From the NCBI GenBank assembly GCA_945903705.1, contig CAMDOZ010000004.1, forward strand, positions 1 to 61,102: a DNA stretch of 61,102 bases. The letters run 5' to 3'. The DNA is from Fidelibacterota bacterium (GTDB lineage: Bacteria; Pseudomonadota; Alphaproteobacteria; Rhodospirillales; Rhodospirillaceae). Made by a program: the position numbers and the translations under genes. The notes under the pieces are model-generated. The model was not told where the DNA came from. It worked only from the letters and a program-made list of their open reading frames with translations, and made no database searches. Positions 53,120-56,180 of the stretch are shown here, piece after piece (position 1 is the first letter of the stretch; every line of letters begins with the position of its first letter).

Positions 53120-53199
53120 CTAGTGGAGCGGATTTGCCATTCGCTACCCTGTTTGCTTCTAGGCTGAGAAGCGAATGTCAAATCCATAAGCTCCACTAG
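53120..53199. repeat. palindromic repeat element, copy 1
   Basis: An 80-base inverted repeat with ends CTAGTGG/CCACTAG. The left arm (26 nt, 53120-53145, CTAGTGGAGCGGATTTG...) and right arm (30 nt, 53170-53199) pair with one mismatch and one 4-nt bulge, around a 24-base loop. The ends are the same as in copy 2, which is in the opposite orientation 13 bases away. Looks like a short non-coding MITE or REP-type element. Confidence 0.85.
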
Positions 53200-53212
53200 A
53201 CTCTATAGATAC

Positions 53213-53289
53213 CTAGTGGTCCGAATGATTCTAACATTCGCAAAACGGCTCCCGGAACTGGGATGCGAATGTTAGAATCGGACCACTAG
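53213..53289. repeat. palindromic repeat element, copy 2
   Basis: A 77-base inverted repeat. The left arm (30 nt, 53213-53242, CTAGTGGTCCGAATGATTC...) and right arm (26 nt, 53264-53289) pair perfectly except for a 4-nt bulge (AATG) in the left arm, around a 21-base loop. The terminal CTAG overlaps the end of the M48 gene: bases 53286-53288 are its TAG stop codon on the minus strand. Relative to copy 1 the bulged arm is on the other side, so the two copies are inverted. Confidence 0.85.
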
Positions 53290-55064
53290 CGCCGCCGCCG
53301 CTCTTTCATGTCGCGCATGTGGTTTTGCGCGGTGATCTTGATGTCCTGGAGGCGATACCACGTCGGCGTGCCTTTTTCGAGGAGCTTATCCGCCTGCATC
53401 GTGTAACGGGCGACATCTCCGAACTGGCCGATCAGGATGGCTTTTTCCGCAGCCGCATAGGCGCTCAAGCCCTGGTTACCGGCAAGCGCGTAGGAGCGCG
53501 CCATGAGGTCCCAGGTATAGGCGTTTTCCGGATCGAGAGCGGTGGAACGCTTCAAGGTCTCCTCCGCCTCCTTGGAATAGGCGAGATCGGCGCTCTCGAT
53601 CATCGCGTGGGCCTTGGCGTTCAGGATCTCCGTCGCGTTCGGCATGTACCTGAGCGCCTCGCGATAGGCGATGACGGCCTCCTCGGTCTTGCTGCGTGAA
53701 AGCTGCATGTCGCCTTTGATCTGCCAGAAGTATGGATCCTGCGGACGATCCTTCAGAAGATCGTCGACGAGAGGAATGGCCTTATCGAACTGCCCGCGGC
53801 GGTAATAGGCGATCGCGCGCCCGTAGCGTGCGGGAACCGATTTGTCGGTTTCTGGATAGCGCTGCAGCGTCGCGTATTGCGGCTTCAGAAAGGCATATAA
53901 CTTCGCGACCATCCGCTGGTGGCGTTCTTCGCGGTCCGGAGTCTTCTGCCCGTCTTCGAACGGTGTGTCGAAGAAGGCGCGCATCATTGCGCGTGCGTCT
54001 TCCGGCGGCATGGCTCGCGCGCCCAGGGCCAGCACATTCGCGTTGTTTTGCGCGCGTGCCGCGCGGGCGGTGGGTTCGTCGCGCACCACGGCAGGGCGCA
54101 CACCCGCACGCGGGTTGGCGGCCATCGTGCTGGCGATGCCGGTGCCGGCGCCGTTGACGACAACTCCGGCCTTGGCCGATTGGGTCTCCACCGCCTTGGC
54201 CACGACGTCGGCCGAATCCGTCGTCACCGTGCCGAGGTCCTTCACCTTGAATCCCATGCGCGCCAGATCGTCCGCGATTACCGATTTCAGCTCCACGCCG
54301 GCATGGTCGCTGGCAATAGCGATGGTATCGCCGGGCTGGGCGAGCCGCGTGTCGGGCTTCGCCGGCGCCTCGTGTTGCTTGAACGTCGAACGCTCGATAT
54401 GGGCGCGGATTGTCGCCATGCGGTCGCGGCTCATGGGGTGTGTGCGCACGTAAGGATCGCCGCGGTCGGTGATCAGCAGTTCTTCGCCGGCGAGACGGTT
54501 GAAGAACGCATAGAGTCCTTCCGCCGATTGATTGCTGCCTTCCAAAGCCTGCAGCGCGAACTGATCGGCACGGCTTTCGACGCCGCGGCTGAACGAAAGG
54601 TATTCGCCGATGGCCGCGCGCTGGCCACCCATCATCAAGGCGATGCCCAGGTCCGGGCTTCCGGCGGCGATGCCGGCCGCGACGCCCAGAAGTGTGGCCA
54701 GGAGCGAGATGGCGGTCGGCGCGACGGTGCCGTCTCCATGGGTGACGACGTGGCCTCCCGCGACGTGACCGATTTCATGGGCCAGGACGCCGATCACTTC
54801 GTTGGAGTTCTGGGCCTTAAGGATGAGACCGGTATTGAACAAGATGTGGTTGCCCGCGCCGGCGCTGGCGTTGATCGAATCGTCGACCAGCAAGTTGATG
54901 TGAAGAATGTCGGGCGGCATGCCGCCGGCCTTCAGAATGGGCCGCGCGTATTCTTGCAGCGTCGCTTCGATCTCGGTGTCGGAAATGACCGTTCCCGTAG
55001 CCAGGTCCTGCGCACGGGCCCCCGGCGAGGTCGCAACCATTCCGGCCGCGACAAAAAGGGCCAC
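53286..55064 (-). CDS. secreted M48 metalloprotease fused to an RpiB-like domain and TPRs
   Basis: 592 residues with three parts. (1) BepA/YfgC-like M48 peptidase, about 20-225, zinc site HEIGH at 96-100 and Glu in ESRAD at 163-167. (2) An RpiB/LacAB-type domain, about 236-372: TIAIASDHAGVELKSVIADD, GAGTGIASTMAAN and NNANVLALGARAM. The catalytic Cys of RpiB is Ala286, the H-D pair is R308-D309, and the EHN motif is AQN, so isomerase activity is probably lost. (3) TPRs, about 385-560. A signal peptide (ALFVAAGMVATSPGARAQ) sends it to the periplasm. GTG 55064 is the only usual start, but CTG 55103 with a GGAAGG site would give a better basic signal (TNISSFSRFQRVV). BepA normally lacks part 2. 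The stop lies inside repeat copy 2. Confidence 0.9.
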   Translation of the reverse strand: MALFVAAGMVATSPGARAQDLATGTVISDTEIEATLQEYARPILKAGGMPPDILHINLLVDDSINASAGAGNHILFNTGLILKAQNSNEVIGVLAHEIGHVAGGHVVTHGDGTVAPTAISLLATLLGVAAGIAAGSPDLGIALMMGGQRAAIGEYLSFSRGVESRADQFALQALEGSNQSAEGLYAFFNRLAGEELLITDRGDPYVRTHPMSRDRMATIRAHIERSTFKQHEAPAKPDTRLAQPGDTIAIASDHAGVELKSVIADDLARMGFKVKDLGTVTTDSADVVAKAVETQSAKAGVVVNGAGTGIASTMAANPRAGVRPAVVRDEPTARAARAQNNANVLALGARAMPPEDARAMMRAFFDTPFEDGQKTPDREERHQRMVAKLYAFLKPQYATLQRYPETDKSVPARYGRAIAYYRRGQFDKAIPLVDDLLKDRPQDPYFWQIKGDMQLSRSKTEEAVIAYREALRYMPNATEILNAKAHAMIESADLAYSKEAEETLKRSTALDPENAYTWDLMARSYALAGNQGLSAYAAAEKAILIGQFGDVARYTMQADKLLEKGTPTWYRLQDIKITAQNHMRDMKERRRR

Positions 55065-55229
55065 GACGCGCTGAAAACGGGAAAACGAGCTGATGTTCGT
55101 CAGAGGAAACCTTCCACGCCTTGAAAAGAGGTACGGGAACCGCCGTGCCGGCCTAGCTTATCAGCCCTTTCGGCCCCTCGTCTTGAGACCGGTGCTGCGA
55201 ATACATGCGAATTGTGTCATTTTCCCGCC

Positions 55230-56180
55230 ATGGGGCCTCTCTACAAATGCGTAATCATCCTTTCTTTTCTGACCCTTGCGGGAGTGCTTGGGGGCTGTGA
55301 CGGCCTGCCGCCGGTCCGGTTTCAGCTCGGCGGCCTGCAGGGCTCGGAAAACGCTGAATATGTGCGTCCGCCGCCCCGCCCGGATATGCAGGTGGTCACG
55401 TCCGATCGTGAGGCCGCTGCGGTTGCAAGAGAGATCCTTCTCGCCAAAGGAAGCGCGGCCGACGCGGCGGTCGGATTGGGCTTTACGCTGTCCGTGACCG
55501 CGCCCTCGTCGGTAAGCATCATCGGCGGAGGCGTCTGTGTGGCGCGGGACGCGAAGGGCGCCCTTGAAGCGGTCGATTTCAGGACTGCCCGCCTCGGCCG
55601 CGGCCTCTTGGGGCTCCATGCGAAGTTCGGAACGAGGCCGTGGTCCAGCCTGGTCATCTCGGCCGAAACTTTGGCGCGATTTGGTCATCGCGTGTCGCCG
55701 GCTCTCGCCGACGACATCGCCAAATACGGTGGCGTGCTCGCGAGCGACACAAGGGGCCTTCAGCAGTTCATGACCGCCGAACGGCGCCTTATCGCCGCGG
55801 GCGACGACTGGCGGCAGCCGCGCCTTTCGGACACGCTTGCGAAGATCCGCACGCCGCGTTTCCTCGATGGCAATCCTCCGACGTGGGGTGTGCCCGTGTA
55901 CAAACCCTATGAAACGGCGCTTTCGCCGGGAACGACTGGATTTGCGGTTGCCGACGACGCGGGCGCCGCGGTGGCCTGCGCGCTCACCATGGGCCGGCCG
56001 TTCGGTCTCGGCAGCATGACACGAGACGGCGGATTTCTATTCCCTGCGTCCTCGCCCCAGGATGCCATCCTCGATCAGCTTGCCCTGGCTTTCTTGACCT
56101 GCCTTAAGCAAGGCGGAGAACCGGACAAGGATGCAGCGCGTTGTCCTGCGCCGTCCTCCACCTTCAGTCTTATGCCCTAG
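55230..56180 (+). CDS. miniature gamma-glutamyltransferase-family lipoprotein
   Basis: 316 residues from ATG 55230 (MGPLYKCVIILSFLTLAG), lipobox LGGC. The mature part follows the gamma-glutamyltransferase large-subunit pattern: MQVVTSDREAAAVAREILLA, KGSAADAAVGLGFTLSVTAP, SIIGGGVCVARDAKG and EAVDFRTAR. A nucleophile-like SPGTTGFAVADDAGAAVACA near residue 250 recalls the autoprocessing site, where GGT has TTHFSV; here His is Gly. At about 300 residues it is near half of normal GGT length, lacking most of the middle. May be inactive or a specialised peptidase. A PLP aminotransferase follows 10 bases later. Confidence 0.8.
   Translation: MGPLYKCVIILSFLTLAGVLGGCDGLPPVRFQLGGLQGSENAEYVRPPPRPDMQVVTSDREAAAVAREILLAKGSAADAAVGLGFTLSVTAPSSVSIIGGGVCVARDAKGALEAVDFRTARLGRGLLGLHAKFGTRPWSSLVISAETLARFGHRVSPALADDIAKYGGVLASDTRGLQQFMTAERRLIAAGDDWRQPRLSDTLAKIRTPRFLDGNPPTWGVPVYKPYETALSPGTTGFAVADDAGAAVACALTMGRPFGLGSMTRDGGFLFPASSPQDAILDQLALAFLTCLKQGGEPDKDAARCPAPSSTFSLMP

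Follow-up and report, generated by a model that had tools for sequence, protein, structure and literature searches.

A BepA-like M48 protease carrying an RpiB pseudo-isomerase domain in one clade of an uncultured alphaproteobacterial genus

The window, by which we mean the whole stretch of 61,102 nucleotides that was analysed, carries on its minus strand a gene whose product joins an M48 protease, an RpiB domain and a TPR domain. The reading frame at 53286-55064 is open and gives 592 amino acids counted from a GTG. All residue numbers below follow this 592-residue reading, not the 605-residue reading from a probable CTG start. The gene and its parts are as follows.

55110..55115, minus strand: GGAAGG, ribosome-binding-like (putative role), 6 nt upstream of the probable CTG
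55103-55101, minus strand: probable CTG start
53286..55103, minus strand: fusion gene (signal peptide, M48, RpiB pseudo-isomerase, TPR), 605 residues from the probable CTG
55011..55103, minus strand: predicted signal peptide, judged by eye (basic n-region, hydrophobic core, ARA before Gln)
54402..54965, minus strand: Peptidase_M48 domain, from the Pfam match and invariant residues
53949..54353, minus strand: inserted RpiB pseudo-isomerase domain, about residues 238-372, from Pfam and alignments
53289..53948, minus strand: resumed host sequence TPDREERHQRMVAKL..., with two helices and then the TPR domain
53286-53288, minus strand: TAG stop of the fusion gene

Pfam placed Peptidase_M48 at residues 34-221 (86.5 bits against a cut-off of 20.3), LacAB_rpiB at residues 248-374 (109.8 bits against 24.7) and the first TPR matches at about residue 400. 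When the protein was compared with the PDB by phmmer, both flanks matched BepA and the middle matched RpiB. A preliminary description of this gene, made from the DNA letters, had proposed a BepA-like M48 and TPR protease with a whole RpiB domain between the two parts, and both searches bear this out.

The same fusion was found in three further genomes of the genus, and the four fused genes have in common the motif GTGGAAGGTTTxCCxCTG, with small changes at most. GGAAGG or the same bases precede the start in all four. Because this upstream GGAAGG is kept, we preferred the CTG start, and the fusion gene probably begins at CTG 55103-55101 rather than at GTG 55064. With the CTG start the protein is 13 residues longer and its signal peptide has a basic n-region (by eye), which is missing under the GTG start. 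The signal peptide of the preliminary description thus stands as a prediction made by eye, and its GTG start gives way to the likelier CTG. Judged from this signal peptide, the fusion product is apparently exported.

Directly after the fusion gene lies a twin-hairpin repeat of about 170 bp (window 53120-53289), which includes the TAG stop. Both halves begin with CTAGTGG and end with CCACTAG (the first hairpin was read by eye). Seven near-full copies at 81-100% identity, the copy at the fusion gene included, were found in the same genome. The repeat was matched in 9/19 genomes of the genus, with most copies in G010 and G012 and none in the other three fused genomes. In appearance it is REPIN- or MITE-like.

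The protease and TPR parts of the fusion look intact. The residues H96, E97 and H100 (HEIGH), E163 and H209-P210-x4-R215 are invariant in 27/27 aligned relatives, and they correspond to the zinc ligands and the switch His of E. coli BepA (PMC7950410). The NCBIfam equivalog model M48_BAM_BepA gave 142.3 bits, which is under its cut-off of 570, and the protein is therefore named BepA-like and not BepA. By analogy with BepA, the protein probably serves in outer-membrane protein quality control, and its residues suggest that it would be active as a protease.

The insert lies about 30 residues downstream of the switch His209. In the phmmer alignments, residue 222 is paired with position 259 of the 6sar BepA chain, and residue 411 with position 283 of a chain whose numbering runs 27 lower, which corresponds to about 310. 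In BepA, an extended linker (M263-S271) joins helix 7 of the protease to the TPR domain with helices 8 and 9 (PMC7950410). Since the phmmer positions bracket this linker, we place the insert within it, between the M48 and TPR domains; its exact insertion residue there we infer. In our full-length model the insert is succeeded by two helices (378-393 and 396-402), which probably correspond to BepA helices 8 and 9.

We found the fusion in 4/19 genomes of the genus: the window genome (G000), G004 (JAIUPE010000134), G005 (JADZAK010000134) and G011 (CANJEU010000288). The last three come, to judge by the record titles, from three different isolates, and their LacAB_rpiB matches scored 73.3, 73.9 and 105.4 bits. 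Homologues that keep the fused domain order, which the preliminary description had called for, therefore exist. In 13/19 genomes the protease is uninterrupted, with two adjoining matches and no insert between them, and in 2/19 (G003 and G013, both 79% complete) we found no such protease match. Elsewhere in the family (73 genomes) and in a sample of the order (297 genomes, at most 8 candidates scored per genome), no further spanning match was present among the matches listed by score; a spanning match is expected near the top, since the listings were ordered by score, and G011 was absent from the order-sample matches. At E <= 1e-30 and at most 6 candidates scored per genome, samples of the class (385) and the phylum (398) gave no spanning match. 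A search of public records with six short peptide patterns taken from close relatives gave no independent fusion either. With this threshold, these candidate numbers and these patterns, a diverged independent fusion could escape the searches. No description of an M48-RpiB fusion was found in the open-access literature searched.

The surroundings of the gene are conserved. Of the 19 loci compared, 13 are unfused loci of the genus and one comes from another genus; the remaining five represent three fused genomes, two of which occur twice. Genes for an aminotransferase, a gamma-glutamyltranspeptidase-like protein, the protease, a DsbA-like protein and a DUF2786 protein are kept in all of them except L004, whose contig ends before the DUF2786 gene. 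RNase E, flgE and thiG lie further out in most of the compared loci. In the window, the gamma-glutamyltranspeptidase-like gene (55212-56180) is divergently placed and short (322 aa). It is 67-71% identical to its counterparts in the other fused genomes and only 35-43% identical to those at the unfused loci compared, where the other neighbours reach 46-92%. We also observed that nine records (L046, L050, L052-L056, L058 and L059) are titled Candidatus Marinimicrobia but match contigs of genomes which the genome search assigns to one genus together with records titled Rhodospirillaceae; the Marinimicrobia titles seem to be mistaken.

The fusion has a single origin, and the RpiB domain derives from the clade's own rpiB. 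In the host tree (27 rows, of which 23 are unfused) the fused hosts formed one clade (100/100), and so did the fused RpiB domains in theirs (100/99). A 33-row tree, which adds ten further RpiBs, six of them from other families as outgroup, united the fused domains with the canonical RpiBs of G000, G004 and G005 (100/98). Trees and counts used 19 of 20 canonical RpiB rows; G059 was left out, as its row held the wrong stretch. A separate canonical rpiB is present in 3/4 fused genomes (G000, G004 and G005), and in G011 (71% complete) we found the fused copy and no separate canonical rpiB. The insert begins with the canonical RpiB N-terminus found in the genus (AQPGDTI...), and in the window it ends at the canonical TPFEGG segment. 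From the trees and the ends of the insert, it follows that a resident rpiB was duplicated once into a resident bepA-like gene in the stem of the clade. The canonical rpiB of the window genome (L064 3210-3656) encodes DHAALDLK in place of the DHAG of the other 18 canonical rows, and its product keeps the Cys and His102 equivalents.

The inserted domain has lost its catalytic residues. In the numbering of LdRpiB, and with the 19 canonical rows as reference, none of the four fusions has an equivalent of Cys69, His102, Tyr46 or Pro47. A Cys is present in 19/19 canonical rows and in none of the four fused RpiB domains; the whole window protein contains no Cys. The YPDYGH loop is deleted in 4/4 fusions (in the window after Asp286). 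The equivalents of His11, a phosphate-contact residue, and of Asp45 are each lost in 2/4. Those of Asp10, Gly70, Gly72, Asn103 and Arg113 are kept in 4/4. In Leishmania RpiB, the substitutions C69S, H102N and D45N abolish activity, while Y46F is active and P47A reduced (PMC4783025). Loss of the Tyr-Pro loop alone is thus no proof of inactivity. The loss of Cys may partly reflect life in the envelope, since the unfused hosts mostly lack Cys (20/23 rows have none in the last 430 residues) and E. coli BepA has none (PMC8423444).

These results support the view, proposed from the window alone, that the RpiB domain is catalytically dead, and correct the details. The active-site residues had been numbered 20 too low, and those meant are Ala306, Arg328 and Gln339. 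The proposed replacement of Cys by Ala holds when the domain is aligned pairwise with its two closest canonical RpiBs (Ala306); the multiple alignment gives Asn304, and the pairwise check favours Ala306. Active-site His residues had been read as replaced by Arg and Gln. Gln occupies the His102 position in 4/4 fusions (Gln339 in the window), which upholds the second replacement, but the Arg328 position, a His in 16/19 canonical rows, matches no active-site His named in PMC4783025. The deletion of the conserved YPDYGH loop had gone unremarked in the preliminary description.

We modelled the structures from two separate alignments; a joint alignment of full proteins and lone RpiBs had matched the latter to the M48 part. 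The full-length model (27 rows) reached a pLDDT of 77.3 and a pTM of 0.61, and its best match was BepA (TM 0.73-0.77 by BepA length, rmsd 6.3-8.4). Going by this model, with its pTM and rmsd and with the help of the 23 unfused rows in its alignment, the TPR part may pack on the peptidase. RpiB structures came lower in the match list (1o1x, TM 0.54; 3s5p, TM 0.61), and confidence over residues 241-380 was low to moderate, at 50-83 per ten-residue block. We also modelled the most eroded domain, that of G005, on its own (pLDDT 79.8). It matched the RpiB structures 3s5p (TM 0.82-0.83) and 5ifz (TM 0.86-0.87, both by target length), and this model leans towards the RpiB fold since it was built with 19 canonical rows. 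The match agrees with the RpiB domain expected in a predicted structure, and shows that the G005 sequence is compatible with the RpiB fold, which it may adopt.

The RpiB domain is in frame and under purifying selection. The insert is free of stops and frameshifts in 4/4 fused genomes. We used NG86 estimates of dN/dS; YN00 yielded no number for most pairs. For G005-G004, dN/dS was 0.042 in the RpiB part and 0.036 and 0.028 in the flanks. In the other five fused pairs, it was 0.25-0.38 in the RpiB part and 0.07-0.16 in the flanks. Canonical RpiBs gave 0.09-0.24 (15 pairs), and the flanks of unfused control pairs 0.04-0.19 (6/8 values; two had no dS). All of these ratios are rough, because several dS values are near or above 1. 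We also placed the base changes at random in 3/6 fused pairs. The G005-G004 RpiB part shows 6 amino-acid changes against 29.7 under random placement. Across the three pairs, the observed/random ratios for the RpiB part were 0.20, 0.68 and 0.73, and 0/500 placements were as low in each pair. The domain thus changed fast early and is tightly constrained in one lineage or more.

We propose, with a probability of roughly 55%, that the insert is a domesticated pseudo-isomerase, kept for its fold as a structural hinge module and derived from a single in-frame insertion of rpiB. In the ancestor that four species of an uncultured alphaproteobacterial genus share, a duplicate of the resident rpiB, from about codon 2 to the TPFEGG segment, would have been inserted into the M48-TPR linker of the resident bepA-like gene without breaking the reading frame. 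Having lost the Cys, His102 and the substrate loop, the RpiB part is an isomerase no longer and would have been retained for its fold. The folded pseudo-RpiB would then sit as a module in the one covalent hinge that connects protease and TPR domain, and it could give dimers. RpiB has been described as an obligate dimer in which an Asn reaches into the partner's site (PMC3212906), and the equivalent of this Asn (Asn103) is among the residues kept in 4/4 fusions. Dimerisation is the leading specific guess for these two reasons: by analogy with the family and from the one kept Asn, the insert possibly dimerises the protease. More specifically still, the obligate-dimer fold of the captured enzyme may dimerise the BepA-like protease or fix the protease relative to the TPR domain, and so change its action on the outer-membrane assembly machine. 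We offer this tentatively, as a proposal with the odds against it.

The insert may instead be a tolerated passenger, that is, a near-neutral insertion at a permissive linker which is selected only to fold without aggregating or blocking the protease. Among the searches run, the fusion was found in one small clade only, its pocket is eroded with no visible replacement, and the full-length model still matches the arrangement of BepA, as a predicted structure can suggest. The faster evolution of the RpiB part than of the flanks in 5/6 pairs also fits relaxed constraint. However, in G005-G004 the insert is held nearly as firmly as its flanks, and the frame is intact in every fused genome. We consider this explanation unlikely, about half as likely as the structural-module reading.

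The preliminary description had suggested a repurposed domain that senses a sugar-phosphate-like or cell-wall ligand and might gate the protease; in the form considered here, the RpiB pocket, or a remodelled version of it, would bind a periplasmic ligand and act through the hinge. The position of the insert in the hinge, so soon after the switch His209, speaks for this. So do the residues kept by the window copy: Asp253, His254, Asn340 and Arg350, together with the Gly-Thr-Gly-Ile loop (307-310) in the pairwise register. We counted retention at positions common to at least 18/19 canonical RpiBs, in the multiple-alignment register. Pocket sites are kept in all four fusions at 5/13 positions, against 21/41 other sites (one-sided Fisher p 0.32), and in the window alone at 8/13, against 33/41; by reading, the all-four pocket count is unchanged in the pairwise register. 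Across the four fusions, pocket sites show no preferential retention, and nothing here points to the pocket as the conserved feature. Moreover, the YPDYGH loop is gone throughout, the phosphate-contact His is missing from half of the fusions, and the loop that follows the Cys strand varies across the four in both length and sequence, being altered in the three fusions other than the window copy. With these counts and with the catalytic equivalents lost, the sensor proposal is unsupported and in our view improbable. For the clade as a whole, the data speak against sensing by the ancestral pocket. They do so least firmly for the window copy, where most of the pocket loop is kept. Anion binding by the window copy stays conceivable because of the pocket residues and the Gly-Thr-Gly-Ile loop it retains, and so does a new site.

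An active isomerase in the periplasm, suggested by the high LacAB_rpiB score, is rejected and has a negligible probability: the Cys and His102 equivalents, whose substitution abolishes the Leishmania enzyme (PMC4783025), are lost in all four fusions, and a canonical rpiB is present in the genome. A chimeric assembly or annotation artefact, a concern raised earlier and natural where all four assemblies are fragmented (220 to 400 contigs) and the three other records are titled MAG, is equally negligible and as a chimera ruled out, since four diverged genomes share the architecture, a near-identical junction region and the neighbours.

Because the domain lost its enzyme residues and was then retained under purifying selection, the question whether an inserted pseudoenzyme acquires a structural role can be tested here directly. 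With the donor gene, the recipient gene, their unfused relatives and four diverged descendants available together, one can trace how a multidomain protein was born from two resident genes and domesticated. Work on how BepA is gated, by its His switch, its lid and the contact of its TPR domain with the BAM complex, is still under way. Since the insert sits in the hinge of such a gated protease, it is a natural probe of the hinge freedom that BepA-type proteases need.

Taken together, the window protein can be compared with three known systems. It is like BepA/YfgC, the beta-barrel assembly-enhancing protease, in its HEXXH motif, its Glu as third ligand, its switch His in HP-x4-R, its pre-TPR helices, its TPR domain and the match of its predicted structure, and it differs in carrying a complete RpiB domain at the linker. 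With the RpiB/LacAB family of ribose-5-phosphate isomerases (PF02502), the insert shares sequence family and predicted fold, as expected of a domain derived from the clade's own rpiB. However, it lacks the catalytic Cys, the His at position 102 and the Tyr-Pro loop, and it is part of a fusion with a signal peptide, whereas RpiB is a free cytosolic enzyme. The unfused M48-TPR orthologues of the genus (13/19 genomes) occupy the same place between the DsbA-like and gamma-glutamyltranspeptidase-like genes and are 53-65% identical to the window protein in the M48 part and 62-66% in the TPR part, but in them a short linker joins the two parts without an insert.
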